In this document: positions 1 to 31,267 of the stretch, piece after piece
Layout: each line of letters begins with the position of its first letter
How positions within the stretch are numbered: the stretch's first letter is position 1
NCBI GenBank assembly: GCA_023078555.1
Contig: CM041202.1
Span: 5,628,522 to 5,692,521, forward strand
Length of the DNA stretch: 64,000 nucleotides
From: Ulva prolifera
Lineage: Eukaryota; Chlorophyta; Ulvophyceae; Ulvales; Ulvaceae
Reading direction: 5' to 3'
Translations under genes and position numbers: made by a program
Notes under the pieces: generated by a model
Databases searched by the model: none
Told to the model about the DNA's origin: nothing
Seen by the model: only the letters and a program-made list of their open reading frames with translations

Positions 1-1436
1 AGTGCTCCTCAAGCAGTTCGAGGTGCGCTATCCGCCGCTCCAGCGGAATCTCAGATTTCTCTCATCTAGAAGGAGACTCTTCTGAAGTGAAGCGTGCGCT
101 CACAGGCGCGGTGTCTGCTAACGTGCTCTTGCGAATGCCAGCTTGTTTGCTGTTGTGGACTGCAACCCCACGTCAGCCACGTTTGTGGATGCATCCCGGT
201 GCCCCCTCAGCTAGCCACTCGACACCCCTCTGATTCACAAAGCATCGATTGTTGCTGAAGGTCCACGCTCGATCACCCCAAAGCTGTCGCTGAGCTGTCT
301 TGATTAATATGTACTTGTGGAACCTCCATGACATGTTCGCCACCTCAGGGCATCCTGCCATGCCGCGCAGTGTGAGGACTCAACTCGCCGCCTCGCACGC
401 ACTACCTAGTCTCGTGTCAGCCGGTCCAAGACTTTGTGGACAGCATCAACGGGGGCCCCCCCTATCAGCACATGTACATCTACCAGCGCTGTGCTCTCCC
501 GCGGCCTGTCCTCACAAGCACACCTCCCACAGCCCACCTCCGACACTCAAACACAACACTGTTTGTCACACAAACTGATAGGTGTGTCATAATCCTGTGG
601 ATTGACAATCTCTTGATCTTTAGACAGTATGCCATTTGTGTGGTTGGCGCCTTTTATGACTGCGGGCGCCTGCATGGCGAGCGCCCAGCCAGGCCCACCC
701 TGCACGATGCATGCAGGTCGAGAACGCCCACGTCCACTTCTACCGCCAACTGGCCCTGTCAGTGGAGCAGCGCGCCCAGATGGCCGAGTGGTGGCACTCC
801 TGGCTCGGACACAAGGGCGCCCTCGGGGCCTCCGCCGCTGCCGCTCGGCACGCACTGGACTCGCTACCGGACACCTTGCCCCTCCCCCAAAGCCACCTCA
901 GCCACATCTGCCGGGTGGCAGAAGGGGCTGCGCTAGCGCGCACGTGCGCCGCCTGCGCCCAGGCCACGCGCCGCGCTTCGCTGAAACCGTGCGCTTGCTC
1001 AATCACTATGCATGAGAGCCATGCATGTGGTGCCACACTTGGGTCGGGGGATGGGGCTGTGGGTATGCATTCCGGGGGGGTGGAGGCCGCCACCTGCTGC
1101 GCAGGCTGTGGCGATCACGTCGCCGACGGCACATGTGGGGCGCCGTTAGGGGCTGACGCGGGGGGGATGTGTAGCGCCGCGGAGGCTGTGCGGCTGCTGC
1201 GGGGCATGCAGGACGTGGACGGCGCGCTGTCGGTGTCGGCGGTGGCGATGCACCTGCAGCCTGGGGCGCTGCTGGGCGCGGGTCAGCTGGCGTGGATCGC
1301 ACGCAAGACCCTGCTGCACGGCTGCCCGATGATCGACCACCTCGTGCTGTGCCAGCTGGCGGCCACACAGCTACGGCGGCAGGAGATGTGGCGCTGGCCG
1401 GCCGTGCTGGGCGCGCCGCTGCCAGAGCGCATGTGA
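1..1436 (+). CDS. bZIP-array protein, copy 0 (3' end only)
   Basis: This is the 3' end of a member of the tandem bZIP-like family; the rest lies left of the window. Positions 1-22 are the last codons of the conserved 171-bp exon, ending KQFE before a GTGCGC donor. The last exon, 717-1436 (239 codons plus stop), follows an acceptor reading ATGCAG. It starts VENAHVHFYRQLALSVEQRA, continues with the WWHSWLGH block and a Cys/His patch (RTCAAC, MHESHAC, CAGC), and ends RWPAVLGAPLPERM, as in the complete copies at 4848, 10122, 16938 and 22997. No internal stop is seen. Its presence at the edge shows that the array extends further left. The function is inferred from the complete copies: a DNA-binding nuclear protein. 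Confidence 0.8.
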
Positions 1437-2116
1437 CGAGTTCTTGTTTGCTTCTCGCTGGTGTGTGTAATGCACTGCACTGCAGTTTATCAAGTCGAGT
1501 TGCCTTGCAACGTTGTGAACTCTCGTTGTGAACTCTCGACAGACCTGAACGTTTGGGTCCATCTTCTGGAGGGGTAAATCAGGCATACGCTGTAAGCGCC
1601 TCACACCTGTGCAGTCAAGGGTGTCTTTCTAGATAGCTATGGCTGTTTTGGTTCGCATACAAGCGCATAACGCGACCCGTGATCTCCTGAAGATAATACA
1701 CCCCAGCTGGCCAGTGAACCATGCAGCAGGACAGCCGGCATACCGGCACGATTCTACAGTAAACAGACACAGCGAACGGCTGCATGATGAAGTAGATCCT
1801 CTGAGACTCCTCAGAGGCGGTCCCGATTTCCTTGCTCTAGCACATCCGCTGTCGCATCTGCTGCTACCTATAGCTAGCTGTAGGCGCCCGCCGCAGGCGG
1901 GGGGGGGGCATCTCCGGGATGAAGCCGCATGCATGACCCTGACGTGAGCCGCCGCCACCCCCAGCCGTGGCGTGACTACAAGTTGCAGTCTGCAACAACA
2001 TTATATATTATAATATCCCCGGCGTCATGGATGACAACACTGCCGTGTTCCCAGTGAGGGCCCGGCTCCACGACAGACTGCTGCGAGGTGGCGGAGGCGA
2101 CCAAGACGAGGCGCAC

Positions 2117-2169
2117 GGCACGAGCCAGCTTGTTACGTAATTACGGTACGTAACAAGCTGGCTCGTGCC
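2117..2169. repeat. Perfect foldback (23-bp inverted repeat, 7-nt loop)
   Basis: Positions 2117-2139 and 2147-2169 are exact reverse complements separated by ATTACGG. Outside the arms, CCAAGAC at 2101 and GTCTTGG near 2180 also pair, so the structure may span about 85 bp. No flanking target-site duplication was identified. It could be a small foldback element or a cruciform-forming site. Confidence 0.8.
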
Positions 2170-4847: not shown

Positions 4848-7800
4848 ATGTGGGAGCTCATGGACGACCAATGTGTGCACCAGCCTGGCTGTGTTGCCAA
4901 CGCACCTGGAGACACACACGGCGTTAGAAAGACTCATACGAAGCGGCTAGATCGCACAAGAGAGCGTAACAGGGATGCGCAGAGGCGATACAGGGACCGG
5001 CGAAAGGTATGTTGCCCGCTTCCAGCACGGACGCTGCCGCGGAGGCACTACGCATAGCACGCGTGCAACTTTAGCCCGGTGAATGCAACGCTTACCCTCA
5101 CGAAGCTGCATTCCTGCGCGTCTGCCTGCGTCTCCACTCCACGCGTGGTAGCTAGCAAATGACTACCGACAGCATTTGTCACATCACGCAACCATCACCC
5201 GCATCGTCGACATATGAAAATCTGACCGTGGATCTAGCGTTGGGTATGATGGCCATTGACATCGTGGGTACACAGGGCATCACCTGTGTGTGCAGATGGA
5301 ACAAGACAGCTTGGAGCACCAGATTCGACTCCTCCGCATGCGCAAGGCCGAGGCAACAGCCGCACGGGACTGTCTGCACCACCAACGGCAGACCCTGCAC
5401 GACCGTTTCCTGTGCGCACTTATGCATGCACCATCGCCTCACAGCTCTGCCACTCCAGTGGCCTTTCAGCAAGCCACACCATGCCCGGCCCCCACCCACC
5501 CAGCCACGGCACAGCAGCAGCTCCATACTCCTGCGCGCGGCCACGGCAAATGCGTCGGATCCGGAGCGTCGCAACCCGCATATCACAACTCCCTCGTCCG
5601 GCCCCGCCACACCAGCGCAGACATGTACACCCGCCGCCCCCTCCTACCACCTCCGATGTCATCCTTCCGCCACTGCGCCGCCATCTCCTACGACGACTTC
5701 CTCAAAGCGTCCGGCAGCTCCTCCCGCATCATCGACCTCTCGCGAATGGGGTACATGGACATTGTGCAGTCCGCCCAGACCATGATTGCACAACGGCTCG
5801 GTTGCAACCAGACCGACATCTGCTGGGTGGTGCAGACGCATTACGAGGTCGCCCCGGGCGTGCCGCTGTCTTACACGTCCAGCCTCAGCTCCCCAGAGTG
5901 TGTCGCGTCCCTCGTCCTGCACACTGTGATGGCGCAGGTGGAGGTTGCGGTACTGTCTGCAAACTGCGCGCTTGATGCCGCAGGGCAGTTGCCCGCGCTC
6001 ACACCAAATGCGGCCCTGTCAGCAGCCAACGCCGAAGAAACGGAATCGATTCGCAAGCGCACGGGGCATGCCGCACCGCACAAGGCCGCCAGATCAGCAG
6101 CGTCAGTGGACCCGCCTGATGAAAGCTGTATGCACGAGGAACATGCATGTCGGCTTCTTGACGGCCCATGCGCTGACTCAGTCGATCTACTGGCTTTTGC
6201 CCTTGACTGCGGGACGCTTGCAGACGCAGAGCTGTGCATGCATGCCTTTGATGTGAGGCCAGGGGACCACATGGGTGAAGACACCCCTGTGTGTGGCGGC
6301 AGCGCAAACGGCTTCAGTGGCGGTGGCGTTGGCGCAGGCGCTGATGCAGCTCTCGAGAAGTGCGAGGGAGATGATTCCACTGCAGGCGCCTCAGAGCCGC
6401 TGTTTGTCCGCTGCGGGCTGTCGGGGGTGTGTGATGTCCACGCGGCGGTCCGGGCGGTGGTGCTGCAGGTTGTGCGCAGCATAGCGCAGCACAACGCGGC
6501 AGGCTTGGAGTCAGTCGACGAGCTCATGCGAGCTTGCGGGGAAATTGTAGCAGAGCTTGTCAGGAAGTTCGAGGCGCAAAGCGCACCCGAGGCCGCGGCG
6601 GTGGAAGCGACATGGGGGATGTCGGGGGGAGGCCAGGCGGAAGCGGCTACAGGGGTCTGTGTGGCTGAGAGGCCAGAAGCAGATGCACCCATAGTAGATG
6701 AACAAAGCTGGGTTTATGGTGAAGGCATCGATCAGGGTGGACGTCAAGACTCCACAGAGCTGGCAGCATACCACAGAGTCGTGACGCGCACGCTGTGTGC
6801 TATGCTGCGTGATGCTAGCAACATGTGCCGCGAAGCCTGTGGGAGGTGGCATGAGCAGGTGCGCTCGCCTTGGTCCTGCAGGACCAGCTGTAGCCTGTCG
6901 TGCACCATCAAGGTGCCAAAACCAATTCATCAGGCTTGTGCCCCTGTTGCTCGCAACAGTTTGGCCTGTCGTGCACCATCAATGTGCCATATTACCCAAT
7001 TCACCAGGCTCGTGCCCCTGTTGCTCGCAACAGTTTGGCCATTCACAGCATCGATATCGCCTGACCTCAAGGAAATTTGGAATGTCAGAGAGGCCGTCAC
7101 ATGCACGCTGTGTGTGGTGAGAACCCCAGTGTCCAGGTCCTGTTGAACATGGCTTTGGGTGCGTTGATAAGAGCCCCGGCCGTCAGGTCGTTGCATCCTT
7201 TCTGCTGGCTTCTGTTGGGCAGCGCGGACCCGATTCACTGGCACTGGCGGCCAACCCCCCCCAACGTCCGACGGCTGGTTTGCAGGTGTCGGAGGTGCCT
7301 CTGCCGGCGGCTGTGGCTGAGGAGCTCCGGCAGGAGCAGGTCCAGGTCTCGCTGACGGAAGTGTGCACGGGCAGTGCGATGGCGATGCGGGACGCAGCAC
7401 GGGTCATGCGCAGCATGGCAGTGAACGAGATCTCGGTGCTGACAAAGCAGTTCGAGGTGCGGTTCTTGAGACCCCGGCAACTACTGAGTGTGACCAGCAT
7501 TCATGCTGTGTCACATCGCATGCATCTGCGCTCATGTACAGGCCAGTGCATCATTGTTGCTGTGACTGTGATTTTGAGGGTGTGGTCCCACGAGAACGGC
7601 GACGAGGCAGGTAGCACCTCGGAGGCTGCGGGGAGATCTATGCCTGTACAAATGGGAACCCCGCAGCGCTTCTGCGGTGTCGGTATGCGACCACGTACAT
7701 GTGGCTGGTGCTGCCGCCCGGGCAGGCTCACCCAGCTTAGTGCATGCAGATCGAAAACGCCCACGTCCAGCATTACCGGGAGCTGGCCCTGTCAGCAGAG

Positions 7801-8466
7801 CAGCGCGCCCGGATGGCCTCGTGGTGGAACTCGTGGCTCGGACACAAGGGCACCCTTGACGCCTCGGCCGCTGCTGCTCGGCGGGCTTTGGACTCGCTCC
7901 CAGACACACTGCCGCTTTCTCAAAGCCACCTAAGCCACGTCTGCCGGTTGGCAGAGGGGGCCGCGCCGCCGCGCACATGCGCCACCTGCGCCGAGACCCC
8001 GCGATATGGCTCGCAGGGACCATGCGGACGTGCAAACATCATGCATGAGTGCCATGCATTTGCTGCGACAGCTGGTTGTTGGGGTAAACCTGCAGGCATT
8101 CATGGCAGAGAGCACAAAACCGTCTGCGGCTGCGTATGCTGCGGTGGCCCGGTCGCTGATGAAGCGTGTGGCCATGGAGTGCCGCTGGGGGCTGACGCGG
8201 GGGGCATGTGTAGCGCCGCAGAGGCGGTGCGGCTGCTGCGGGGCATGCAGGACGCGGACGGCGCGCTGTCGGTGTCTGCGGTGGCGATGCCGGGGGCGCT
8301 GCTGGACGCGGGCCAGCTGGCACGGACATTCCGCCACAGCCTGCTTAACAGGTACCCGATGGCTGACATTCTCGTTCTCTGCCAGCTCGCGGCCACGCAG
8401 CTGCGGCGGCAGGAGCTCTACCGCTGGCCGGCCGTGCTGGGCGCGCCGTTGCCGGATCGCATGTGA
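4848..8466 (+). CDS. bZIP-like transcription factor, array copy 1
   Basis: The model has four phase-0 exons: 4848-5006, 5296-6858, 7286-7456 and 7750-8466, about 869 residues. Exon 1 ends in an AP-1/YAP-like basic region, RTRERNRDAQRRYRDRRK, that fits the bZIP rule N-x7-R. Exon 2 opens with EQDSLEHQIRLLRMRKAEA, a likely coiled coil, and then holds the unrecognised conserved module from RHTSADMYTRRP through SGSSSRIIDLSRM to PGVPLSYTSSLSSPECV, an acidic linker, the LFVRCGL...VVRSIAQHNAA block and YHRVVTRTLCAMLRDAS. Exon 3 is exactly 171 bp. Exon 4 has EQRARMASWWNSWLGH and a Cys-rich patch. The start is the ATG at 4848, which aligns with MWER in copy 3; a GTG start at 4839 is less likely. DNA binding in the nucleus as a dimer is inferred; targets are unknown. 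Intron 2 contains a 70-bp tandem duplication. Confidence 0.8.
6894..7038. repeat. Tandem duplication of about 71-74 bp in intron 2 of copy 1
   Basis: Positions 6894-6964 and 6965-7038 are near-identical. Both begin CCTGTCGTGCACCATCAA and end GTTGCTCGCAACAGTTTGG. The duplication lies wholly inside intron 2 (6859-7285). Confidence 0.85.
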
Positions 8467-10121: not shown

Positions 10122-13100
10122 ATGTCGATGCGTGACATGCGGGACTCGGAGCGCATAGCTATAGACGACCATGGCCAATGCGTGCACAATCAGCAGGGCG
10201 CTGTTGACAACGCGCCAGAAGAGTCATATGGCCGTAGAAAGACAGCCAAGACTATCGACGAGCGGCTAGACCGTACCAGAGAGCGAAACAGGAACGCTCA
10301 GAGGCGATGCAGGGAACGGCTGAAGGTGCGCAGCGCTCTACCCGCCAGTCAACGTTCCGGCAGGGTGGCTGCAATCGGAATCTTCGCAGCTAATTCAACG
10401 CTAGGCCTCGCCAGGCCGTATGTGGCTTACGCGTGCGTCGACACTTCACGCATGACAGCTGGTAGCATTTGTCATCTGACCAATGTACCACCTGCACCGT
10501 CCTGACTGTGCATCTGTTGTTGGGCATGATGGCCATTGACAACCGCATTGACAACCGTGCGCAGACAAGATATCACCCGCCTGTGCAGAAAGAACAAGAC
10601 AGCTTGGAGCAGCAGATGCGCCACCTCGAAGCGCGCAAGGCTGCGGCATTCGTTGCACGGAACCGCCTGCAGAACGAACGCCACACCCTGCTCGGTCGTT
10701 TCCTGGCAACACGGACACCGGCACCTCGCGGGCCTGCATCACAAACGTGTTCACACGGCGTAACGCCCTCCCCGTCCCTCGGCCACTCTGCCGCGCCACC
10801 ACAGCATGTGCAGACCCGCCCTCCCCCCCACCCCCCCGACAGCGCAGCCGCAGCGCCGTCTCGCCCCATGCATCACGCCGCCCTCGTCCGGCCCCGCCAC
10901 ACCAGCGCAGACCTGTACACCCGCCGCCCGATTCTGCCTCCCGTAATGTCATCTTTTCGCCATTGCGCCGCCATCTCCTACGACGACTTGCTGGAGGCTT
11001 CCGGAAGCTCCTCCCGCATCATTGACCTCTCACGCATGGAGTACATGGACATTGTGGAGGCAGCACAGACTGCGATTGCGCAGAGGCTCGGCTGCAGCCA
11101 GGCGGACATCTGCTGGGTTTTCCAGACGCACTACGAGGTCGCCCCGGGCGTGCCGCTGTCCTACTCGTCCAGTCTCAGCTCCCCGGAGTGCGTCGCATCT
11201 CTGGTCCTGCACAGTGTCTTTGCGCCGCTGGAGATCGCAGTGGTGTCTGCAAGCAGCGAGTCGGATGCCTCAGGGCGCTTCCCCGCGCTCTGCCACGTGC
11301 CCTCACCGGAAGCTGCAGTGTCCGAAGACTTCACTGGAGAAGCGGAGGCGAGCCGCAAGCGCGCATGCAATGACATGACGCACAAGAACACCAACCCAGC
11401 AGCCTCGACGGGATCGCCTGAGGAAAGCAGCATGCATGAGGACCATGCATGTGGGCTTCTCGATGGCCCCTGTGCTGACTCGATCGACCTACTGGGGTTT
11501 GCTCTCGACTGCGGGACTCTTGAAGACGCGGAGCTGTGTATGCATGAGTTTGCCGTGAGGCCTGAGGACCACACGGGTGAAGACACCCCTGTGTGTGGCG
11601 ACAGTGCAAACGGCTTCAGTGGCGGCGATGGCGCAGGCGCGTGTGGTGCAGCTGTCGAGGGGGGTGAAGCGGATGCTGCCATTGCAGGTCCCCCAGAGCC
11701 GCTGTCTGTCCGTTGTGGGCTAACCGATGTATTTGATGGGCGCATGGCCGTCCGGGCGGTGATGCAGCAGGTTGTGCGCAGCATAGCGCAGCACAGCGCG
11801 GCGGACTGGGAGACAGTCGCCAAGCTCGTGCGCGCGAGCGGGGATGCTGCCGCAGAGATTGTCAGAGTGTTCGAAGCCACCATTGCACACAAGGCCACGG
11901 GGGGCTCGAAGGAAGGGACTGGGGGCATCTCAGGCAGCACTGAGGCTGCTGCGTGTGCTGCGCATGCTGCGGCCCAAAGCAGTGGCCCGTTTCGGCGTCA
12001 GCCGGGGTGCGAGCGTGCGGGCGACAGTGCTGCCACACGCCAACCGGAGCCCCTGGGTGTGAACCATGCAATTTGTACAGAGGCTAGCGGGGTCGATGCA
12101 GGGGAGTTTCAAAGGCAGTGTCATGTCAGCGGTGATGACAACAGGTGGTCGGGGGCCACAGCGGCGGCGGGGGCAGCAGCTGGTGAATTCAGCATGGGAG
12201 GGCACTCTGCGTTCGATGGCAAAGACGGAGGGAATGCCGATGGCAGTGGTGATGCAGAGGAGATAGAGTTGGCCGCGTACCACGATGACGTGACGAGGAC
12301 GCTGTGTGCCGTGCTGCGTGCTGCGTGCGACGTGTGCTACGAGGTTTGCGAGGGGTCACCGGTGCAGCTGCAGGTGCGGCCACCTCGCTGCTACAGTCTG
12401 TTGGGGGGTGGAGGTATCGGGCATGTAGACTTGGCGAGGTCCCCAGGATTTGCACATGCATCTCGTATCTTTGGAGATGTTTGTTTAGGGTGCCAACTTG
12501 TTGCTATCGCTTGGGTGGGGGCTCCGCACCGCTGACAAGGCCTCCAACATTATAATGCTGAGGACCTCCCGGCTTGCAGGCGGCGGAGGTGCCTCAGCCG
12601 GCGGCTGTGGCTGAGGGGCTCAGGCAGGAGAACATCCAGGTCTCGCTGACAGAGACGTGCACGGGCAGTGCGATGGCGATGCGGGACGCAGCGCGGCTCA
12701 TGCGCAGCATGGCGGTGAACCACCTCTCCATGACTACTCAACAGTTTGAGGTGCGTTAACGTTTGAGGTGTTAACGTTTGAGGTGCGTTAACGGAACGTT
12801 CCTTGCAGACCCAGCAAAAACGGTCAGCCATCAAGACTGCAACACTTTTCGAAGGGCAGGTTCATGGCTGAACATGAATTGCGTGTCATTCTGCGCACAG
12901 GTGAGTGTGCCTGAGAGCATGTGCGGGGTGGACCAAAGGCAGCGGCCAGGCTGCAGGTCGCACCGCAGAGACTCCGAGGACATGTGTGCCTGTGCATGTT
13001 TGGATGCCGCAAATGATATCTATGCGGTGCTGAGTTGCAGCAGGAAGTGCCCTGTCAGGCCCACCTGGCTCAACGCATTCAGGTGGAGAACATCCATATC

Positions 13101-13763
13101 CACTACTACCGGCAGCTGGCCCTGTCAGTGGAGCAGCGCGCCCAGATGGCCGCGTGGTGGCACTCCTGGCTCGGACACAGACGCGCCCTAAACGCCACGG
13201 CCGATGCCGCTCAGCGGACTCTGCACTCGCTGCCGGACACTTTGCCCCTCCCCGGGGGCCACCTTGGCCACATCCGCCGGGTGGCAGACGGGGCAGCGCC
13301 GCCGCGCATGTGTGCCACCTGCGCCGACTTCTCGCGCTTCACCTCGCCAGGATCTTGCGGACGCTCAGACGCCATGTATCAGCAGCATGCATGTGCCGGG
13401 ACGGCAGGACGGTGGAGTGGTGCGATATGCGGCTGCGCAGGCTGTTGCGGGCCGGTCGGGGATGATGCGGGCGGCTTGCCGCTGGGGGCGGACGCGGGGG
13501 GCATGTGTCGTGCCGCGGAGGCGGTGCGGCTGCTGCGGGGCTTGCAGGATGCGGACGGGGCGCTGTTGGTGTCTGCGATGGCGATGCCGGGGGCGCTACT
13601 GGACGCAGGCCAGCTGTCGTGGACCTGCCGCAAGAGCCTGTTGAATGGGAGCCCGACAGTTGACAACATCTTGCTGTGCCAGTTGGCGGCCACGCAGCTG
13701 CGGCGGCAGGAGTTGTACCGCTGGCCAGCCGTGCTGGGCGCGCCGCTGCCAGAGCGTATGTGA
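10122..13763 (+). CDS. bZIP-like transcription factor, array copy 2
   Basis: The model has four phase-0 exons: 10122-10325, 10589-12373, 12580-12750 and 13083-13763, about 946 residues, the longest copy. The basic region is RTRERNRNAQRRCRERLK; Cys replaces the Tyr of its sisters at a position that faces DNA in bZIPs. Exon 2 starts KEQDSLEQQMRHLEARKA, and the unrecognised domain follows (RHTSADLYTRRP, FRHCAAISYDDLLEASGSSS, SSLSSPECVASLVL). Then come an acidic low-complexity stretch, LSVRCGLTDVFDG and VVRSIAQHSAA, and the YHDDVTRTLCAVLRAACDVC block. Exon 3 is 171 bp. Exon 4 carries EQRAQMAAWWHSWLGH and ends RWPAVLGAPLPERM. The start is the first ATG of MSMRDMRDSER. The 5' splice site of exon 3 is present in triplicate. 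A short copy of the exon 4 tail follows the stop at about 13780-13822. Confidence 0.8.
12744..12792 (+). promoter_or_regulatory. Triplicated 5' splice site after exon 3 of copy 2
   Basis: The junction TTTGAG|GTG occurs three times in 40 bp, with donors at 12751, 12768 and 12783. The first keeps the frame used in the other copies. After it the sequence reads GTG CGT TAA, so use of either downstream donor would place a stop codon right after exon 3 and remove the exon 4 module. Confidence 0.7.
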
Positions 13764-14362: not shown

Positions 14363-14378
14363 GGCGGACGAGCTCGGA

Positions 14379-15571: not shown

Positions 15572-16937
15572 CCGTGCTGTGGGCTGCGGAGAATGACGTC
15601 AAGGACACGTGGATACATTGAGTCAGGTCCTGAGCGGACAGCGGCAAGTCCGGGTGCTTGCGGCCGCCTACTGGAGGGGGAAAGTACCTGAGGCTGTCGT
15701 GAACCTGCATGTATCACACATAACTGAACACATCGTCAGCCCGTAGGCTCCTGGAGGTCGTTGGAGCTGTTCAGTTTGCTGTCAGATAACCCTAAGGGCA
15801 TTGTAGTTACGATTACGTGTTGCCGGGACAGTGCGCATGCGATACGCGAATGATGCGCTGCTGGGCTGCAGTAGGTACACCACAGCTTCAGGTATACCAC
15901 AGCATGCGTGTTCACAGTGGCTCCTCCCAGGCTGACGACCGCCCGAATGGCGACGTACATGCATGTGGTGCAAGGCGTCGTGCTCATGCTGATGTGCCGA
16001 TCTAGTTCCAAGGGCGCCCCAAAGCCGAATCCACTCAACACCCACCCGCAGGGCGCACTCCCTCGCCGCTCCGCACCCAAAGCTTGGCCAAAACGTGCGA
16101 AGGCAATGCGCCGGTCGTAATTCATCAACACCAAGCCAGCCATGATCATGACGCCTAATGCTACCCACGTCGGACAGAGCGCGAGAGCAATATCAATCTA
16201 GTGTCCTGTCTCCATGACGCACAATGTTCCTAAAGCGCAGCCTCCTTTCCCGCTTTCGTCCTTGTGGTGTCCCCCCCCCCCCCCCTCCCGGGTTGAGCAA
16301 GCCTGAACAGTATGCATATGGCCATGTGTACATCGAGCCAGAGGCTGGCCTGTGGCTCGACATCGGAGCGCTGAAGGTACTGACGTGTCCGCGTTGCATG
16401 AACTGGTTTGAAGTGTATAGTGCGGCAGTGACAGCTGTGATGTTGCGTGTGCTGGCCACGCGCATGGACACTCGTGAGCTGCGCCCGAGCTATCGTCACG
16501 ATGCCTGGAATAAGCGCTCACTCTTAGCGAAACGATTCAGCGTCAACAGCCATACACGGGCGACTCGCATGACTGTCACACATTTAGCGTCAGATTATTC
16601 TACAAAGTGCTTTTGCATAGCTTGCTGACGTATCAGAGCTGCCACTTGCGAACCGTGCAAACGGTGATACGGCAACCCGGCATTTGTCAGCTGTGCGGTG
16701 ATCATGGCATGGCAGGAAAGTTCACAATATACCACTCGATCAGCAGATCGTATTCACAGTTTGCTGTTTCTTGCTTCAAACTCACCGGCGATGCGATACA
16801 GAACGCTGCCCCAGCTGTTGTGTTGCTGCATGCGCCCGGCCCCTTTCGCTGTCCGATAGAATACGCCACAAACAAGTCACGCCATAATAACAAGCTGCCT
16901 GGGCTGCTGTGGGGAGACGCAGGTGTTGACGCGTAAC

Positions 16938-19900
16938 ATGTGGGAGCGCATAGATAATCACTGCGCGCACGATCATCTGGGCGCTTTTGGTAGCGCAACA
17001 GAACAGGCACAGGACCGTAGGAAGACTACAAAGACACATGAAGAACGGCGAGATAGAACGAGAGAGCGCAATCGGAACTCTCAGAGGCGATACAGAGAAA
17101 GGCAAAAGGTGTGTAGCGCTCTTCCAGCATCGACGTCGCCGCGGATGCACTGGTTTGGCTTAATGGCTTTCGGAGGCAGTTACATCCATGTACACCTGTC
17201 TACCAATGACAGCTGCTCGGACGCCTTGCCTCACCAAGCCGCATCACAGGTCTTCGTCTGCGTCTCTACGCCACGCGTGATAGCTGAAAATGCACTCCGT
17301 TAGCACATGTCTTTCAATCCATCCATCACCGGCACTGCCGTCACAATATCTCTGGTGTCTATCATGGTAGCTCGTGCTAGCGTGGAAAGACGGGAGTCAC
17401 CTGCTCATGCAGAAAGAACAAGACAGAGTTGAGCAACAGCTCCACCACCTCGAACAGCGCAAGGCCAAGGCGATAGCCGCACGGGATCAGCTGCAGTGTG
17501 AAAGGCACACTCTGCTCGACCGGATCATGGCCACGCCGTCGGCTCACAGGCCTGCAGCTCAAGCAGGCCCACCCGAAGCCACACCATGTGCATCCCTCAC
17601 CCTCCCAGCTGCGGCATTGAAGCGGGACTGCAATGCACACGGCCACACCCCCAACGGCACACGCGCAGGAACATCCTGCCCCACACATCACACCTCCGTC
17701 ATCCAGACCCGCCACACCAGCGCAGACCTGTACACCCACCGCCCCATCCTGCCTCCCGCAATCTCATCCTTCCGCCACTGCGCCGCCATCTCCTACGACG
17801 ACTTTCTCGAAGCTTCCGGAAGCTCCTCCCGCATCATCGACCTCTCCAAAATGCCGTTCGTGGACGTCGTGCAGAACACACAGGCTGCGTTTGCGCAGAG
17901 GCTCGGTTGCAGCCAGGCTGACATCTGCTGGGTGGTGCAGACACACTACGAGGTCGCCCCGGGCGTGCCGCTGTCCTACACATCCAGCCTCAGCACCCCG
18001 GAGTGTGTTGCCTCCTTAGTCCTCCTCAGCGTGTTTGCGCAGCTGGAGACAGCAGTGATGACTGCCAGCAGCGAGCCAGATGCCCCCGCGCGATTCAACA
18101 CCCTGAGCCGCATGGTCACACCAGACGCCTTTACGTCAGCAGACTCCGCAGGAACATCAGAGGCAAGATGCAAGCGCGCATGCCGCCAGCCCCCGCACGC
18201 GCATCCCAGCTCAGCAGGGTCGGCAGGATCGGCTGATATGCTCTGCATGCATGAGGACCATGCATCCGGGCGGCTTGGCGGCCGTGATGGCAATGCCATT
18301 AGAGGCCCTGCAGAGCCGCTGTTTGTCCGCTGCGGGCTGGACGGGGTGGCTGATGGGCGCACGGCGGTCCGGGCTGTGATGCAGCAGGTCGTGCGCAGCA
18401 TAGCGCAGCACGCCGCGGCGGACGGGGCAACTGTGGCCAAGCTGATACGATGCTGCGGCGACATTGCAGCAGATGTTGTGAAGCAGTTTGATGCCACAAG
18501 CGAACCCGCTGCCGCAAGTGGCACAGTGGAAGATGGGGAGGGTGTCTCTGGCAGTGCTGCTGCACATGCTGCGCGTGATGTGGCCCCAGGCGACGGCAGT
18601 TTTCCAGCTCAGCACGAGAGTGAACTTGCGGGTGAGAGCCCTCACGAACCCCGGCTGTTGCCGCCGGACGGGGACCGGGGGGACGAGGCTGGCGGCGTCG
18701 ACGTCGGGGAGTTCCAGCGGCGGTGTCGCGTCAGCGGTCAGGATGACAGGGCTCCGGGGAACGGCGCCGCAAAGAGGCCAGCGGGTGACGAACACAGGGC
18801 AGCAGAGCCGAGTGAGGACGCTGGTGAAGCTGGGGGCAGTGCCGATAGCGGTGGCGAAGCAGAGGTGGCACAGGCAGACGCGTACCACATGGCCGTGACG
18901 CGGACGCTGTGTGCCGTGCTGCGTGCTTCGCGCGACGTGTGCTATGAAGTCAGTGCGGAGTGGCGGGCTGGAGCGGCTCAGGTGCGGCGGTCTTGTTAAT
19001 GTTGCCGCAACATTGCTGCATGCCGATGTGCTCCATCTCTGCCCTAGTGAAGCTAGCACAGTTGGCCATCATATTCAAAGCACCTTGCGGTGGGCTCGAC
19101 AGGCGCCGGGTGGCCTTCACACTCGCCGCAGGGCTTCTGCATGGGATTCGGGACTGTGGACTCGGACTGAAACCCGAGAAACTGGAAGCCTTTGTACTTG
19201 ATCGGGCAGTTCATTCGCGTGGATCGCTTGCTGTCTGCATCGGGTGTAAGGCTGCCCTGTCGCAGCGCCACCTCTCGTGCCCCGCGTGAGCAGTGCGCCA
19301 GGCTTGCAGGCGACGGAGGTGCCTCTGCCGGCGGCTGCGGCTGAGGAGCGCCGGCAGGAGCAGGTGCATCGCGCGCTGACGGAAGTCTGCATTGGCCTTG
19401 TCATGCCGAAGCGCGACGCTGGGCGGGTGATGTGCAGCTTGGCAGTGAACCAGATCTCAGTGCTGACCAAGCAGTTCGAGGTGCGCTCCTTGCCGCCCCA
19501 ACAAGTAAGCCCTGGCGCCATGCACTCGACGGGGGCACTTGTGGACTTGAATGCGCACATACAAGTCTGCCAGTTGCTGGTGTACTTGTGTAGCTTCTGT
19601 TGTGCTGGGTTGAATCTCGACTGTGTGGATGCATGGCGGTGCCAATCACACCGCACACCGCTTTGATGTGTACCAGATGCAGTCCTAGTTGCTGAGGGCC
19701 CCCGCTGCATCACCCCACAGCCGTTGCTGAGCTGGCGCACGTCAACACGCGTGTAATTCCTGTGATGTGATTTGATGTAGTCTATAACATTTGCCGTCCC
19801 ACAGACCCCTGACACGCCACGCCAGGCTAAATCCAGGGACCTGTGTCGCATTGGACGCACCACAGATAGCCGCAACAAGCGCTTCATCTCCCTGAAATGT

Positions 19901-20938
19901 CCCTCAAAATTGCTGCACTTGTCGGTTGCTCTCTCCCTCGCAATTTCGTTCCTTTGTTACGCAGTTCAAACTGACTGCGGACCCCACTCCCCTTCTTACA
20001 CCCCCTGATGTCCGCCGATCTGATCCTATGTGATCAACACCGTTCGTACGGCAAACCGAATTAGTACAAATCAGCCAGCGCTGCAGCCCTCCAGAGCTCT
20101 GGCGGCGTGCCGCTTGCCTGCACCGCCGCACCTTCCGCAGGCTCCAGTTCTGTGGTTCTTCGCCTGTCCAGCGGGCCGCAGCCACTTGCACACCAAGCGC
20201 CACGCCCACCCGGCGCAATGCATGCAGGTCGAAAACGCCCACGTCCAGTACTACCGGCAGCTGGCCCTGTCAGTGGAGCAGCGCGCCCAGATGGCCGCGT
20301 GGTGGCACTCCTGGCTCGGACACAGACGCGCCCTAAACGCCACGGCCGCTGCCGCTCGCCGCGCGCTAGAGTCGCTCCCAACCACCCTGCCCCTCCCCCG
20401 AAGCCACCTCAGCCACATCTGCCGGGTGGCAGAAGGGGCTGCGCAGCCGCGCACGTGTGCCGCCTGTGCCCGCCGGGCCGCCTCGCCGGGACCATGTGAG
20501 AGAGGAAACTGCATGCATGTGTGCCATGCATGTGGCGCCACAGACAGGTCAGGGTGTGGGGCTGCAGTTGTGCACGGTGGGCGCGTTCAGGGTGTTGGCG
20601 GCTGCGGAGGCTGTGGTGGGCCGGTCGACGAGGTGAGTGGCGTGCCGCTGGGGGCCGACGCGGCGAGCATGTGTCGTGCTGCAGAGGCCCTGCGGCTGCT
20701 GCTGAGCATGCAAGACGTGGACGGCGCGCTGTCGGTGTCCGCGGTGGCGATGCACCTGCAGCCGGGGGCGCTGCTGGACGCGGGCCAGCTGGCGTGGATT
20801 TGCCGCAAGACCCTGCTGCACGGCTGCCCGATGATCGACCACCTCGTGCTGTGCCAGCTGGCGGCCACGCAGCTGCGGCGGCAGGAGATGTGCCGCTGGC
20901 CGGCTGTGCTCGGCGCGCCACTGCCGGATCGCATGTGA
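16938..20938 (+). CDS. bZIP-like transcription factor, array copy 3
   Basis: The model has four phase-0 exons: 16938-17108, 17413-18981, 19310-19480 and 20228-20938, about 873 residues. Exon 1 encodes MWERIDNHC and the basic region RTRERNRNSQRRYRERQK; Ser replaces Ala in the NxAQ signature. Exon 2 begins KEQDRVEQQLHHLEQRKAKA, a heptad-like coiled coil, then has the unrecognised module (RHTSADLYTHRP, SGSSSRIIDLSKM, SSLSTPECVASLVL), a shorter linker than in copies 2 and 4, LFVRCGLDGVADGRTAVRAV, and YHMAVTRTLCAVLRASRDVC. Exon 3 is 171 bp. Exon 4 carries EQRAQMAAWWHSWLGHRRAL and the Cys/His patch (RTCAAC, MHVCHACGAT, CGGCGG). The reading frame is open throughout. A nuclear DNA-binding role is inferred from the basic region only. 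Confidence 0.8.
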
Positions 20939-22996: not shown

Positions 22997-25900
22997 ATGT
23001 TGATGCGTAACATGTTGGAGCGCATAGACGATCACTGTGCTCACGGCAAGCTGGGCTTTGTTGGCAGCGCACCAGAACAGAAACACGACCGTCGAAAGAC
23101 TGCAAGAACAAGTGAAGAACGGCTAGATAGAACAAGGGAGCGCAACCGGAACGCTCAGAGGCGATATAGGGAAAGGCAAAAGGTACGCAGCCCTCTTGCA
23201 GCATCGCCGTTGTCGCGGATGTACTAATCGCTTTGCAAGTCAGCAGTGTACTTGATCACGAACGTCTAAAGATTCGTAGCTTGATGTAAGCTTGACGAAA
23301 CTGCGTCCCAGGCAGTTCGCCTACTTTTGATTCACGCCACCCATGATAGCGGCAAGTGTGACAAGGACAAACGCGACGAGGCAGGTAGATGGCAACAAGT
23401 GCACCCAAATCGCAGGCGTTGTACAGACCACCCACCATATGCATTGTCCTGACTGTGGCTTTGCACTTCTTCATGATAGCCAATGACGTCGTAGACACAC
23501 GAGACCTGCTGATGCAGAAAGAACAAGACAGCCTGGAGCAGCAAATTCACCACCTCAAACAGCGCAAGGCCAAAGCAGCAGCCGCTCGGGATCAGCTACA
23601 GAGGCAACGGCACACACTGCTCGGCCGTATGATGTCCCCATCGTTGCGTCACAGCCCTGCCTCTCCAGCATGTGCCCCCAAAGCCAAGCCTTGCCCACTC
23701 ACTCACCCACCTGCAGCAGCAACGATGTCTGCCCCAGCCCCCCACACCGCAAGTGCAGCAGCATCTCGCTCCACTCATCACACCGCCCTCGTCCGGTCCC
23801 GCCACACCAGCGCAGACCTGTACACCCGCCGCCCCCTCCTGCCTCCCGCAGTCTCCTCCTTCCGCCACTGCGCCGCCATCTCCTACGACGACTTCCTTGA
23901 AGCCTCCGGAAGCTCCTCCTGCATCATTGACCTTTCGTGCATGGGCTTCGTGGACGTCATGCAGTCCGCACAGACGGCGATCGCGCAAAAGCTCGACTGC
24001 AGCCAGGCGGACATCTGCTGGGTTGTACAAACGCATTTTGAAGTCGCCCCGGGCGTGCCGCTGTCTTACACTTCTTGCCTCAGCACCCCAGAGTGTGTCG
24101 CGTCCCTGGTCCTCAACAACGTCTTTGCCCAGCTGGAGGCGGCAGTGCTGTCTGCGAACAACGAGGCAGATGCCCTCGGGCGCTTCCCCAAGATTTGCCG
24201 CGTGCTCACACCAGACACGACCAAGTCCGCGAGCTCCACAGAGGAGCTGGAGACGAGTTGCAAGCGCACGTGCGTAGAGACGTTGCATGCGCGCAACAGC
24301 TCAGCTGCTTCTGCGGGAACAGCTGGTGGCAGCCACATGCATGAGGACCATGCAAGCGGCCTTGCTGATGGCCCACGCGCAAGTTCGTTTGACGGACTGG
24401 GTTTTGCCATTGAATCTGGGGGGCTTGAAGAGATGGCTCCATCATGCATGCTGGAGCTCGATGAGTGGCTTGAGGACACCGCGGCTGGTGACGCCGCCAC
24501 GTGTGGAGGCATCGCATGCAGCGGCGGCAGTGATGCATGTCCTGATGCGGCGGGTGGGCCGGGTGAGGGAGACGACAGAACGGTGTGCCCTGCGGAGCCG
24601 CTGTTTGTCCGCTGCGGGCTGGAAGGTGTGGCTGATGGGCGCACGGCGGTCCGGGCTGTGATGCAGCAGGTCGTGCGCAGCATAGCACAGCACAGCGCAG
24701 CGGACGCGGCAACGGTTGCTGAGATCGTGCGAGCTACCGGAGACACTGCCGCGGAGGTCGTGGAACAGTTCGAAGCGGCAATCGTGCCCGGCACCGCGGC
24801 GGGCACGGTGGAAGGGGCAGATGGGAGGTCAGGCAGTGCTGAGGCTGCTGCGTGTGCTGCGCATGCTGCGGCGCCGAGCAACGGCTGCAGTGCGGGCAAG
24901 CACGAGTGCGAGGTTGCGGGTGAGAGTGCTCACGCAGCTGCGCCGTCGGTATCGGATGGGGGCCGGGGGAGCGGGGTGGCTGGGTTTGATGTCGGGGAGT
25001 GTGAGCGGCAGTGTTGCGTAGACGGCAAGGAGGCCATGGCTGCGAGGAACAGCAGGGCTTCGTGGCAAGAGGGCAATGTAGCTTCAATGGCAGGAGGAGA
25101 CAGTCGGGGCGATGGTCAAGGGCGGGGGAGTTTCAGCGGCAGTGATGATGCAGAGGATGCTGTGTTAGCCGTGTACCACGAGACTTTGACGAGGACGCTG
25201 TGTGCCGTGCTGCGTGTCGTGAGCGGTGTGTGCTATGAGGCCAGCGAAGAGTGGCGGACTGGGAAGATGCCGGTGCGGCCGCCTTGCTGCCACAACCTGC
25301 CTTGCCTTCAATATACTCTGACATCGACAACAGAGTGGGGGGTTTGAGAGACGCCGGGTGGCCGTCATGACGCGTCACGCTCTGTCTGCGGGGACCTTGT
25401 ACGTGCATTGGGTCTGTGCGCCAGGAGCGACACCCAGAAAATATCAGCTGTTGCGCATGATCGGTGTTTCCATTGATGCCGATGACTCGCTACCTTCATG
25501 TGTCACACGGCGGCCCTCACCCAGCGCCACCTGCCGTTCCCCGCGTGAGCAGTGCTTCCGGCTTGCAGGCGGCGCAGGCGCCTCTGCCCGCGGCTGCGGC
25601 TGAGGGGCGCCGGCAGGAGCAGGTGCATCGCGCGCTGACGGAAGTCTGCGCCGCGCATACCCTGACGATGCGGGATGCGGGCCGGGTGCTACGCAGCATG
25701 GCGGTGAACCAGATCTCAGCCACCCGGAAGCACTTTGAGGTGTGCACCCTGGCATGATCTTGCCGCCACACCAAACATAGGACATCACCAGGTTGGAAGG
25801 GCAACGGGACGACATGATGCTCGACTGTGCGCACAGGCAAGTCAGCGTGGTGTGTCTGGGCATTTGCAGATGCGCAACTGGTGCATGCGATGTTGGGTGT

Positions 25901-26668
25901 TATATAATCATAGATCTACGTACACACATGACTGCTGTGAGCGCCAGGGCAGCGCAATGCGTGCAGGTGGAGAACGCCCACATCCAGTACTACCGGCAGC
26001 TGGCCCTGTCGGCGGAGCAGCGCGCCCAGATGGCCGCGTGGTGGCACTCCTGGCTCGGACACAAGGGCACCCTTGACGCCTCGGCCGCTGCCGCTCGCCG
26101 CGCGCTGGACTCGCTCCCGGACACCTTGCCCGTCCCAAAAGGCCACCTAAGCCACATATGCCTGGTCGCAGACGGGGCAGCGCCGCCACGCACGTGTGCC
26201 ACATGCGCCGAGGCCTCGCGGTGTGCGTCGCCTGCACCGTGCGGTTGCTCAAACAACATGCATGAACGGCATGCATGTAGCACCGCAAAGGGGATCTGTA
26301 GCGGGCCTGTCGATTTATTCATTGGAAGTGGCTGCGGAGGCTGTGGCGGGCCGGTCGACGAGGTGAGTGGCGTGCCACTGGGGGGTGATGCTGGAGGCAT
26401 GTGCCGTGCTGCGGAGGCGGTGCGGCTGCTGCTGGGCATGCAGGATGCGGACGGGGCGTTGTCGGTGTCCGCGCTGCCGATGCATGAGCAGCCGGGGGTG
26501 CTGCTGGATGCAGAGCAGCTGGCGTGGATGTGCCGTAAGAACCTCATGCATGGGTGCCCCGTGATTGACAACGCCGTGCTGTGCCAGCTGGCGGCGACGC
26601 AGCTGCGGCGGCAGGAGCTGTACCGCTGGCCGGCCGTGCTGAGCGTGCCACTGCCGCAGCGCATGTGA
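22997..26668 (+). CDS. bZIP-like transcription factor, array copy 4
   Basis: The model has four phase-0 exons: 22997-23182, 23518-25272, 25569-25739 and 25967-26668, about 937 residues. The basic region (about residues 44-62) is RTRERNRNAQRRYRERQK. A coiled coil follows at about 63-100 (EQDSLEQQIHHLKQRKAKA). The unrecognised module is at about 157-265 (RHTSADLYTRRP, HCAAISYDDFLEASGSSS, APGVPLSYTSCLSTPECV). The block LFVRCGLEGVADGRTAVRAV is at about 420-485 and YHETLTRTLCAVLRVVSGVC at about 614-635. The 171-bp exon encodes residues 648-704. The last exon has EQRAQMAAWWHSWLGHKGTL and the Cys/His patch RTCATC, MHERHAC, CGGCGG. The start could also be the ATG at 23012, which aligns better with copy 3. 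A 33-nt poly-G tract begins 24 bp after the stop codon. Confidence 0.8.
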
Positions 26669-26724: not shown

Positions 26725-26725
<1 letters not shown>

Positions 26726-27572
26726 TTCGGGACCTCAGATGCTGAGCTGCTGGGCTGGGCTGACACCACAGCAGGCACAGCATGTATGCGCACAGTGCGC
26801 TCTGGCCAGGCTGTTTCTATCAATCAGGAGATAGCCATTGCAGGTGTCCACATGTGGCCTGCCCCATGTCGCCCACGATGGATCGCCGTTCCTTTTCAGA
26901 GCGCGCCCTGATCACTTTTCGCTTCAGCGTCACCGTGCTCTGGATTTTATACATTGTTTGTTGTGTACTATCTTGAAGAACTGTTGTTGCCACACCTATA
27001 CACTAGTCCGTGTTGCTGTCCAGAGCGGCTAGCTATATCGCTGGCGCACATGCATGTGGTGGAGTCTGGCGCCCGCGGCTCAGTGAAAAGTTATCGCTTC
27101 GAATAGCTGAGACAAATCCAGCACAGGAGATTTTTGTGAGGAATATCCAGCTCCCTGTGAGAGGAAATCACTGAGTATCAGGCAAGCTGCCCGAGCGCCG
27201 TGCCATCGACACGAGGCCCCGCATGTTGATAGGTGTGTGCGTACGTACATCAGTGCACACCTGTGGTATCTCGCGATGTTTTGTATGTGAAGCTCTCATT
27301 AGCCTGCAACAACTTTCTCTGGCAGACCTTGAGTTCGGTACTCAAGACTAACGGCTTCCTGGCGTGTTGTTTGCTGCGTCAATTATTATTCCTCCTCAAT
27401 TACACATTGCGCCTCGATGCGCTCAAAGCTGCAAATGCTGCAGTACATTCATCACTTGACGTAGCGTTATATACATCCAAGGTAGCTGTATCTTCTCCAG
27501 ATTGAGTGCCAATCTGAACTGCCCTTGTCGGGGAGGCGTTCGGCTCGGCCATACAATTTCGAACTGACCGGC
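26725..27572. other. Intergenic DNA before the diverged family member
   Basis: No gene is supported. The sequence is more AT-rich than the array spacers and shares no obvious segment with them. It presumably holds the promoter of the gene that starts at 27573. Confidence 0.5.
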
Positions 27573-30500
27573 ATGGAAGTGCCCCTCCCGCCAAGCCCAG
27601 AAGCGCTAATGGGCATGGGATTTGAATATGATGATCGCGACGAGCTGTCCCTGCTGATAGGCGACCTTGGAGTTTTCGACGAGGACGTGCTTCAGCATGC
27701 GATGGAGTGCGATGTTGCCAGTGGAGAATATACCACAGGCCGAATGGGCGGATCAAGAGTTGAGTCAACACACTGCAATCGAAAGCCTATCCCACAGAGT
27801 GTTGCGGAGAAACGCGTTGAGCGGACCAGGGAACGGAACAGGCGAGCGCAGGCGAGATATCGCCAGAAGATGAAGGTGGGTCGTCCTCGAGCAATTCTGT
27901 GATCACATGAGTCAAACATCTCACCACTGCTATTACTTTCTCCCTGACATGGCATGAGCGCCTTACCAGAGCTGAAACTGCTGGACTGATTTGGCACTGT
28001 ATGCGACCTGGTCGCTGAGGACGGTGCTGGGGAGGCATGCTGACAGCCCTTCCCATCCATAGTTTTCTTGGTAACGGTTATCAATTTTGTGTTATCAACA
28101 TGTCACGTCCGGGCGATGCGATGCAGGATCAGTGCGCCTCGCTAGAGCTCCAAGTGCAGGAGCTACAGGCTCGTGTCAATGCTTCACGCGACAAGCGAGC
28201 CAGCCTTCGGCATGCGCATTATGAACAATTCACTCGCCTCTCTGACGCAAAGGACACGCTTTCAGGCATTACCGTGCAGGAGCATGGTCCTCAGCTGGCT
28301 CACTCTGAAGGCTCGCCTGCATCTCCTCTAGCAACGTCCCGACCAAGCCTGCACAATGCAATCAGGCTACAAACTAAGCACGACAGCTCGTCAATGGTGC
28401 TGCACAACACCATGATCAGATCATCTGCTCGCAGAGGTCTATGCACCGACCCCGATACCCCACCAGCACCAATCCACACCTTCACCCACATGGCTGGCCT
28501 TTCATACGAACTTGTACGACGAGTTGCAAGCAACATCCTCGAAGATTCACTCACATGCCAGAGCTCTCGGAGTGTGATCGAGCAGTGCAAGCAAGAGGCA
28601 GCAGAAGGCTTGGGCTGTTCAGCATCCCACGTCTGCTGGTTTCTTATGACGTACCTCCAGGCAGCCCCCGGGGCACCTCTGTCCTTCAGCTCCTCACTGA
28701 GCTCTCCAGAGTGTGTATCATCTTTCGTGCTATCGTTCATGTGCAGCGGCCTCGAGTTTGGCATGGTCACCGCTGCGTTGGATGCACATGGTGCGTTACC
28801 TACCTCTGCGATGAGTACCCCAGTCCCAGAGATCTCAGCTATGTGATTACATATGGCCACTTTGCTATCCGCAAATGAGGGTTTGACCAGCAGAATGTTG
28901 CTGCATGCGATCGTCCTTCACATGCATGCGTGCAGGATTTCCTCCTCCAGTTTCTGCAGCAATGTTACTGAAGAGTGAGTGGATGCAGACAAGCACCGCA
29001 AACTATTCGCCGCTCACCTGCACAGTTGCGGCAGCGATGCAGCAGCACTCCACTCCGCAGAATTTATTCAATCATCTATCCGCACTGCTGAACAGGTTGC
29101 ATGTGCGGAGCTGCTGCTGAGAAGCTCAGCAGTGTGCATGTACGCAGATTCAGACTCAGTGTACGAGGCAGCGGCTGACGAGCACGACCCAAAACGCGTC
29201 CGCATCTGCTCCGCTTCCTCCGGTGCCTCCCCGTCCGGCTCCCCTTGCGCCCAAGACCTCCATCACCCCTCAGCCGCAACGGCCGACTCCATGCGTTGTG
29301 ACAGCCCAGCCACCCCCTCTCACCCCCCACCCACCTCCCCATCAGGCTGCTGCGCGCCGGCATGCGCGCCGTGCCATGGCAGCAATGAGGGTGGACACGC
29401 ATGGTCCGGATGCGTGCGCAGCGGCGTCAACGGCACCGCGTGCGCGCGCTCCGCGGCCGCGGCCGTGCTGCGTGCTGCGGTGGAACCATACGCTGGCGTG
29501 CTGCCACCTGGAGTGCTGCGACGGCTACTGCATGCGACAGCGCGGCAGTCGCGCGCGACTGTCGCCTCCCCCCCGGGCTCGGAAGACCCGGCGGCTGGGG
29601 GGTGGCTGGATAGCGGCTGCGGCGGACCCGCGGATGCGCGGGACGCAGGCGGGGGGCGGAGCGGGGATGCGGACGCAGAGCGCTACCACGCCGGAGTGAC
29701 GGACGCCATCCACGCGGTCATGAACATCATCGCAGATGCCGCGGAGGCCGTGCTGCTGCAGCTGCCCGCCCTGGTGCGCCACCACAGCACACGCCGGGAG
29801 GAGCATGTGCCATGCATGCGGCGGTACAGCAGGCGCAGTCGACGGCATCGGCAGCGTCTAGGCGGACAGGGCTGTGCATGCATGAGGCATGCCGGTGCCT
29901 GTGCACCCACAAGCACAGCACCTGCGGATACATCACCAACCGTCATCAGTGCCGGCCGGCCAAAACAGATTTGGCAGAGTAGGAGCATGCTTTCCTGCTC
30001 CGCAAAGGGCAGCTTCATCACGCAAAGGGCAGCTTCAACACTGCCCATTCCACTGAAAATGCATGCTTTCGGCCTTCCCACTGAAAATGTGTATATACAC
30101 GAGTAGAGCTTCATCGAGCTGAGGGCGGCGGGGGGTGCAGGAGGAGCGCGGCAGAGGGCGGGCGGCGCCGGCGCGGCAGTGGCTGCTTGACCGGAGCTGC
30201 ACCATCATGGCCTCCGTCGGCCTCGGCTACATGGAGACCTTCCGCGCGGCCCCCCGCATCATCCGCCGGCTCGCGTTCCAGGGCGTCGTGACGCTCATCT
30301 CGTTCTATGAGGTCCGCTCTGACCGCCTCGTAGGAGCAGGGGCGGCGGAGTGTTCCAGAAGGCCGCCGCGTCCCCTCACTGCGTAGTTCCGAGCTGCTGG
30401 AGATTACTTGCCCTGTTGTTCTGTTCGTGAATTCTAGTCATTACGATGTGGCTAAGTTAGCCCACGACTGCATAGTTTACGAGTAGCCCCAATTTACACA

Positions 30501-31267
30501 CCATATGTGGTCCCGTTAACTCAGAGTTGTCAATGTGCAATAGGATACGGCTCAGTAAATTTAGACTTACTTTACTTTACCATTGCTTACTACTGATGCA
30601 ACACTTCATTCTTGGGAATGCGTTGTACAGGAGTGGTGCGAAGTTTGCATTGACTAGATGGGAGGGGCACGTGGTTCGCGCCGGCGTGCCTCTGCTCCGC
30701 ATGATCAGATCCCCGGCATCGCTGCAGGTCGAGAACATGCACGCAATGCTGTACCGCAGCCTCCACATGACCTCCCGCCAGCGCGGCAGGATGGCCGCGT
30801 ACTGGAGCGTCTGGGAGCGGCGGAAGCGCGAGCTCGACGCCACCATGCATGCTGCCCGCGCCGCGCTGCGAGAGCTCTCCACAGGGGAGGTCCCACTCGG
30901 CCTCCTCGCATGCATCTCCACCGCCGCCACGGCGGGCTCCGGGGGGGCATACGCGGTGGCCGGGGGGGCGGCGGCCGCCGCCGGCGGGGTGCAGCTGCTG
31001 GGAAGCTGCGCGCCGGCGGCGGTGGCGGCGCGGGACGCGCTCGAGGCTCTGTGGGCGGCCCACGTGGCGGATGCGGACCTATATGCCGACACGATCGACC
31101 TGCAGATGCAGCCCGCGCTCATCCTCGGGCTCGACCAGGTGGCGCGGGTGTTCTCGGTGCACCTCATGCATGACGCCGCGCCGGTGGACTTCATGGCACT
31201 GTGCCAGATGGCGAAGGCGCAGGAGCACCGTGAGAAGATGTTCCAGCGGCGGCCGCGGGAGCAGTGA
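27573..31267 (+). CDS. Diverged bZIP-family member
   Basis: The model has five exons: 27573-27875, 28127-28790, 28989-29773, 30141-30311 and 30728-31267, about 820 residues, with intron phases 0, 1, 0, 0. The N-terminus is acidic. Its basic region is RTRERNRRAQARYRQKMK, and a coiled coil follows (CASLELQVQELQARVNAS). The family module is recognisable (LGCSASHVCWFLMTYLQ, PGAPLSFSSSLSSPECVSSF), as is VTDAIHAVMNIIADAAEA. The fourth exon is exactly 171 bp, like exon 3 of the array copies. The last exon starts VENMHAMLYRSLHMTSRQRG and keeps WSVWERRKREL, but lacks the Cys/His patch. It has an intron at 28791-28988, right after the module, where the array copies have continuous exon 2. The start is the ATG at 27573. 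It probably represents the older member from which, or beside which, the array arose. Confidence 0.75.
30509..30580 (+). repeat. Dispersed repeat R1, copy 1
   Basis: The sequence GGTCCCGTTAACTC...TAGGATACGGCTCAGTAA recurs at 43249-43330 and, inverted, at 38781-38850. This copy lies in the last intron of the diverged bZIP-family gene. No coding capacity or clear terminal repeats are seen. Confidence 0.8.

Follow-up and report, generated by a model that had tools for sequence, protein, structure and literature searches.

Results

The window analysed here is a stretch of 64,000 nucleotides of Ulva prolifera (contig CM041202.1, called C7; C7:5628522-5692521), and the genome searched amounts to 88.9 Mb in 44 contigs. 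A Rubisco small subunit, put together from exon pieces at guessed junctions, gave the small chains 1uw9 and 1gk8, two Chlamydomonas entries, as its best PDB hits (E about 1e-54), in keeping with a green alga. Window positions 1-31267 hold seven units, A to G, arranged head to tail (Table 1). Self-BLASTN of the first 33 kb placed all repeated units in one orientation. Annotation with HMMs, which were built from the window copies and then iterated over the genomic DNA examined, gave the same inventory, and the tandem array of seven units proposed in the earlier note is thus confirmed.

Exon models and splice sites of the array copies were placed by homology. Copies B, C, E and F each consist of four exons with phase-0 introns and open frames and encode 869-946 aa, in agreement with the identical exon architecture previously claimed for the array. 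Copy G departs from this claim: downstream of module 1 its frame is closed by a stop codon at 28844-28846, and consequently this copy needs at least one further intron in its middle part. The AP-1/YAP-like basic region described earlier was found by HMM in B, C, E, F and G, and none was detected by HMM in D.

We refer to X1, X2, A, B, C, E and F as the core copies (n=7), X1 and X2 being located upstream of the window. In all seven, exon 1 encodes the basic region, exon 2 the zipper, module 1 and module 1b, and exon 4 module 2; exon 3 measures 171 bp in 7/7 and every intron is in phase 0. Six of them retain complete frames encoding 869-958 aa. X2 has 808 aa and a frameshifted exon 4 (C7:5622078-5622605), which may be a real pseudogene or an assembly error.

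Table 1. Units of the array and their parts (window positions unless C7 is given; ex, exon).
Feature	Position	Strand	Parts	Protein	Placed by
Copy A, ex1 (upstream of window, copy cut by window edge)	C7:5625786-5625965	+			homology exon model
Copy A, 3' part	1-22	+	last 22 bp of ex3		self-BLASTN, HMM, homology exon model
Copy A, ex4	717-1436	+	stop included		self-BLASTN, HMM, homology exon model
Copy B	4848-8466	+	ex1 4848-5006 (basic region); ex2 5296-6858 (zipper, module 1, module 1b); ex3 7286-7456; ex4 7750-8466 (module 2)	869 aa	
Copy C	10122-13763	+	ex1 10122-10325; ex2 10589-12373; ex3 12580-12750; ex4 13083-13763	946 aa	
Copy D, remnant	14379-15581	+	module 1 start 14379-14426; module 1b 15325-15447; ex4 end 15507-15581		self-BLASTN, HMM
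Copy E	16938-20938	+	ex1 16938-17108; ex2 17413-18981; ex3 19310-19480; ex4 20228-20938	873 aa	
Copy F	23003-26668	+	ex1 23003-23182; ex2 23518-25272; ex3 25569-25739; ex4 25967-26668	935 aa	
Copy G, divergent	27789-31267	+	basic-region exon end 27875; zipper and module 1 from 28127 (module 1 28463-28768); open segment 28979-29779; ex3 match 30153-30311; ex4 30728-31267		HMM, homology, open frames

Elsewhere in the window, an ion-channel-like gene lies downstream of the array at 33614-34686 (PF00520, 24.2 bits against a cut-off of 25), and a protein kinase gene occupies 59275-60999 on the minus strand (PF00069, E 3.8e-24). A 3.3-kb inverted duplication, 81% identical, spans 38988-42136 and 43885-47039. 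Its frames contain stretches that, presumably, resemble alpha-type carbonic anhydrase motifs; Pfam gave no support for a carbonic anhydrase there, and a PDB search returned only a carbonic anhydrase at E 0.97. Pure trinucleotide repeats are present at 51342-51391 (ACA x16.7) and 45878-45903 (GCT x8.7).

According to the HMM annotation, the whole array extends over about 63 kb and 11 units, about 32 kb of it upstream of the window. From the upstream end at C7:5596302, the plus-strand units follow in the order P1, P2, X1, X2, A, B, C, D, E, F, G. This annotation took in the array except for C7:5600646-5607044, where a separate genome search for the basic region gave a match at C7:5606068, upstream of P2.

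The array is one cluster of a family dispersed over the genome. Module 1 of copy C matches at least 44 genome places at E<=0.1, itself counted, and the best of the other matches, at least 43, has an E of 6.3e-63; family matches to this module exceed chance. With a distant member as query, module 1 gives at least 39 places at E<=0.01, and with a consensus-like query at least 48 at the same threshold; some of the weakest of these 48 (E up to 0.002) may have arisen by chance. Module 2 of copy E gives at least 56 matches at E<=0.1, several genes contributing two. Further family clusters were found at C8:4.09-4.16 Mb, C1:1.39-1.42 Mb, C1:2.36-2.37 Mb, C1:12.48-12.51 Mb, C2:10.17-10.22 Mb and C2:11.82-11.87 Mb. 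The earlier description of an otherwise single-copy neighbourhood is therefore abandoned, both because of the upstream continuation and the genome-wide matches to module 1 and because of the inverted duplication in the window itself.

In the DNA examined, the HMMs recovered 30 members for module 1 and 23 for module 2. A basic region lies upstream in 17 of the 30 module-1 loci (one of these basic regions is truncated), module 2 lies downstream within 5 kb in 17, and both are present in 12. No basic region was found in 13/30 and no module 2 in 13/30, many of these loci having been examined over about 1.5 kb on either side. The genome search for the basic region yielded 20 matches at E<=1. Ten of these were previously known, and nine are new and precede further same-strand module-1 places by 0.47-3.9 kb; five of the nine have E values of 0.02-0.29 and were counted through position alone. 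At least 26 of the 48 module-1 places thus appear to be paired with a putative basic-region exon. A family-type match to the basic region was also observed at C1:4161347-4161415 (E 0.001), with no module-1 place within 21 kb. Exon 3 and module 1b are represented by fewer HMM matches than module 1 (15 and 14, respectively), and the end segment of exon 2 has HMM matches in the seven core copies only.

All 16 complete basic-region matches show the N-x7-R spacing, a seventeenth match being truncated. The contact motif of the core copies is NR(N/D)(A/S)QRR(Y/C)R, with N, Q and R kept in 7/7 and Phe in none. Distant members depart from it, two having His before the key Arg, and Ser or Gly being found at the Ala place. 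Zipper d positions read L/V, L, A, L, L in six of the seven core copies, and the zipper of X1 is out of heptad register as modelled. Counting the invariant Asn as 0, the phase-0 intron separates residues 12 and 13, with the first zipper Leu at residue 18.

Splice sites are conserved. Directly after the modelled basic region comes GT in 12 cases and GC in four (n=16), and AG precedes the start of module 2, in phase 0, in 23/23. The ends of the HMMs were fixed by the core copies, and the independent rows are the nine basic-region and 16 module-2 rows outside the core; the nine split into five GT and four GC. The GC sites are located at C1:1418343, C1:12483923, C1:12496929 and C8:4143457. Provided that these GC donors are real, one and the same ancestral hinge site would carry several GC-AG introns.

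Two of 13 spliced bZIP regions passed a Pfam bZIP cut-off (bZIP_2, 23.9 and 25.1 against 22.3) and 11 fell below the gathering cut-offs of bZIP_1 and bZIP_2; the scan comprised sets of three and ten regions (0/3 and 2/10 passing), X2 was left out, and the acceptors of distant members were hand-chosen. A PDB profile search with the basic region returned only ATF-2, at E 0.47. Six promoter patterns of the Yap, AP-1 and CREB types were not enriched in the 600 bp upstream of seven copies. PF00170 matches five other places in the genome, with no module 1 or 2 detected by HMM in about 3.1 kb around each. Three of these five (L001, L003 and L005) carry a basic region of the NRESARRSR type, in contrast to NRNAQRRYR in the array.

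Modules 1 and 2 have no credible match in Pfam or the PDB, and they remain as unrecognised as the earlier note had found them. Pfam finds nothing in exons 2 and 4 of copy C. Twenty module-1 rows gave nothing consistent, with six families hit by one row each (best E 0.073). Among 15 module-2 rows, two match LTXXQ (PF07813), one at 24.7 bits, just over the cut-off of 24.3, and one at 15.7, below it; these matches likely reflect a short helical motif, by chance or convergence. No PDB profile search with either module returned a hit below E 0.2. AlphaFold models built from five and six window sequences were weak (mean pLDDT 56.8 and 55.9) and yielded no Foldseek match at E<=0.001; with low confidence, module 2 (exons 3-4) is predicted to be mainly helical. 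Pattern-based scans found no relative of modules 1 and 2 in viral contigs, nor of module 1 in prokaryote genomes.

A relation of module 1 to the MIF/tautomerase fold, suggested by the top rows of Foldseek (best E 0.48, weak model), found no support. MIF is absent among the Pfam matches of the 20 module-1 rows, and hhalign scored 10.8 against a mean of 10.3 and a maximum of 17.4 for 60 shuffles, in a weak test with one MIF sequence from the same genome.

Twelve columns of module 1 are conserved at >=85% identity (n=30 members). Cys109 is the sole column conserved in 30/30, and Cys83, Trp84, Gly95, Leu98 and Ser99 are each conserved in 29/30. Cysteine makes up 4.3% of the module-1 sequences.

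Selection was estimated by pairwise NG86 over the seven core copies (21 pairs, or 15 where the broken exon 4 of X2 was excluded). Full-CDS dN/dS is 0.40-0.55 in 21/21 pairs, at dS 0.47-0.66; a value near 1 across all copies, which the earlier note named as contrary to its reading, is not seen. Values were then pooled over the seven copies, with a codon bootstrap, for 13 regions. The lowest dN/dS among them is that of the basic region (0.18, 0.08-0.30), followed in exon order by the zipper (0.38), module 1 (0.25, 0.18-0.34), module 1b (0.44), the end of exon 2 (0.56), exon 3 (0.49) and the three parts of module 2 (mod2n 0.32, middle 0.48, mod2c 0.31). The linkers reach 0.74 (0.55-0.99), 0.60 and 0.65, and the leader of exon 1 reaches 0.57 (0.30-0.98). 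No pooled value exceeds 1 in any of the 13 regions. This pattern (0.18-0.32 against 0.60-0.74) indicates that the modules and the basic region are maintained and the linkers relaxed, in line with the constant modules and drifting linkers seen before.

The conserved parts are under purifying selection. Single pairs exceed 1 in the exon 1 leader (up to 1.79), the first linker (1.22), the third linker (1.33) and the end of exon 2 (1.02). Nevertheless, purifying selection dominates, and thus neither the changing selection invoked in the earlier note nor positive selection is demonstrated.

A tree built from 30 module-1 sequences groups the seven core copies in one clade (100/100), which bears out the tandem expansion of a single bZIP type. 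G, P1 and P2 lie elsewhere in the tree, branching at places without resolution. The label "array" costs three changes on the tree, and distant members sit on long branches. The local core clade, flanked on either side by older, divergent copies, suggests that the cluster is old and that one of its lineages multiplied more recently.

Discussion

By their anatomy, the predicted array proteins are bZIP proteins, with a basic region of the NxxAQxxYR type, a leucine register and a phase-0 hinge intron. Excerpts of two studies on plants describe a phase-0 hinge intron at -5 in legume bZIP groups A and G, and in group D together with a second one at -25, and place the intron between Gln and Ala in grapevine groups A and D (PMC4676100, PMC4023599). 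By manual count, the hinge intron of the array family matches this -5 position and phase. As far as these excerpts go, the agreement with groups A, D and G speaks for the splice model and for descent from a green-lineage bZIP. The array family differs from these groups by its two unrecognised modules and by the 11 of 13 regions that stay below the Pfam cut-offs.

Anatomy, splice-site conservation, duplication, the pattern of selection and the lower bound of family size, as read from the sequence, point to a birth-and-death family of regulators of which this array is one cluster. Very probably these are dimeric, DNA-binding bZIP proteins whose additional modules receive a signal or a partner. 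The intact core proteins (869-958 aa) would dimerise via the short leucine zipper, and the NxxAQxxYR-type basic region would bind DNA. Modules 1 and 2, placed downstream of the zipper, may receive a signal or bind partner proteins. The fast-evolving linkers that separate the modules would, together with copy number, provide diversification.

A more far-reaching proposal sees at least 48 one-chain sensor-regulators that a green-algal lineage derived from one hinge-intron bZIP, each with two domains absent from protein-family libraries and a cysteine-pair switch, a repertoire that turns over by tandem birth and death and escapes most Pfam-based counts of transcription factors. In this complete form we consider it unlikely and offer it tentatively.

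A related hypothesis concerns module 1 itself. Its two near-invariant cysteines could form and break a disulfide or hold a metal, thereby controlling DNA binding or location, so that the proteins would act, by convergence, in the manner of the oxidant sensors Yap1/Pap1 of fungi. Cys109 and Cys83 are two of only 12 columns at >=85%, and the basic region is near the Yap1/Pap1 motif. The base-contact motif of Yap1 is given as NxxAQxxFR in an excerpt of PMC8450079; the array motif is close to it, but core copies carry Tyr or Cys at the Phe place, and the exact motif occurs in one of the 16 complete basic regions of the family. Nothing beyond the bZIP points to common descent with Yap1/Pap1, and modules 1 and 2 are without a match. 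The idea of a thiol switch is drawn solely from the cysteine pair. However, Trp84, Gly95, Leu98 and Ser99 are as conserved as Cys83, the cysteine content is 4.3%, the structure models are too weak for use, and the two cysteines may be ordinary core residues. We regard such a switch as decidedly unlikely.

The history of the array can be read in two ways. The remnant D, the damaged X2 and X1, whose modelled zipper is out of register, are consistent with birth and death. The same three units would also be expected if the array were largely a relic, with one or two working copies and the rest young pseudogenes that still look open. Against this, the reading frame is fully open (869-958 aa) in six of the seven core copies, and the full-CDS dN/dS stays at 0.40-0.55 in every pair at the divergence reported above. 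A relic array is improbable, and a family turning over by birth and death remains our preferred reading. Lineage-specific expansions of transcription factors likewise show tandem duplication, remnants, a conserved DNA-binding part and drifting linkers.

DNA binding might also have been lost, the basic region being kept as a nuclear signal in proteins that act as scaffolds through zipper and modules. The low Pfam bZIP scores and the way in which distant members deviate from the contact motif would be compatible with such a loss. However, no region of the 13 has a lower dN/dS than the basic region (0.18), and all seven core copies keep the contact-motif residues N, Q and R. We hold scaffolds to be highly improbable and DNA-binding regulators to be the better description.

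Legume bZIP group D is, we assume, the TGA group. That module 2 is a remote plant TGA/DOG1 C-terminal domain, and the proteins divergent TGA factors, is very hard to credit: its LxxxQ...AL spacing resembles, by eye, that of a TGA fragment, and legume group D has the -5 phase-0 intron too, besides that at -25 (PMC4676100, in excerpt), but PF14144 finds nothing in the genome, and an hhalign comparison between 15 module-2 rows and three TGA rows scored 12.3, within the range of 60 shuffles (mean 11.1, maximum 17.3), while two controls within the family reached 99.9% and 99.0%.

The preferred architecture, a bZIP with further modules in one chain, has a parallel in algae. Aureochromes of stramenopiles combine bZIP and LOV, as an excerpt of PMC4827209 describes, and likewise join a bZIP to a further conserved module in one chain. 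The array family differs from them in having no LOV or PAS among the Pfam matches of the exon 2, exon 4 and module rows scanned. The titles and abstract beginnings listed in searches of open-access literature contain no description of such a family, and neither do the portions available of PMC6652019, whose main text does not mention bZIP, and of PMC11712027, supplements aside.

In a table excerpt of PMC4827209, Chlamydomonas reinhardtii is credited with 20 bZIP proteins, against at least 48 module-1 places here, two counts obtained by different methods and not strictly comparable. If expressed, the family alone would outnumber the bZIP proteins of Chlamydomonas (PMC4827209, in excerpt). Since only two of the 13 bZIP regions pass Pfam, profile-based bZIP counts may miss many, and inventories of green-algal transcription factors could be too low. 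In addition, the family contributes two conserved protein modules without known relative, with 30 and 23 members for modules 1 and 2 in the DNA examined from one genome. The defined cysteine pair of module 1 makes the redox hypothesis directly testable.
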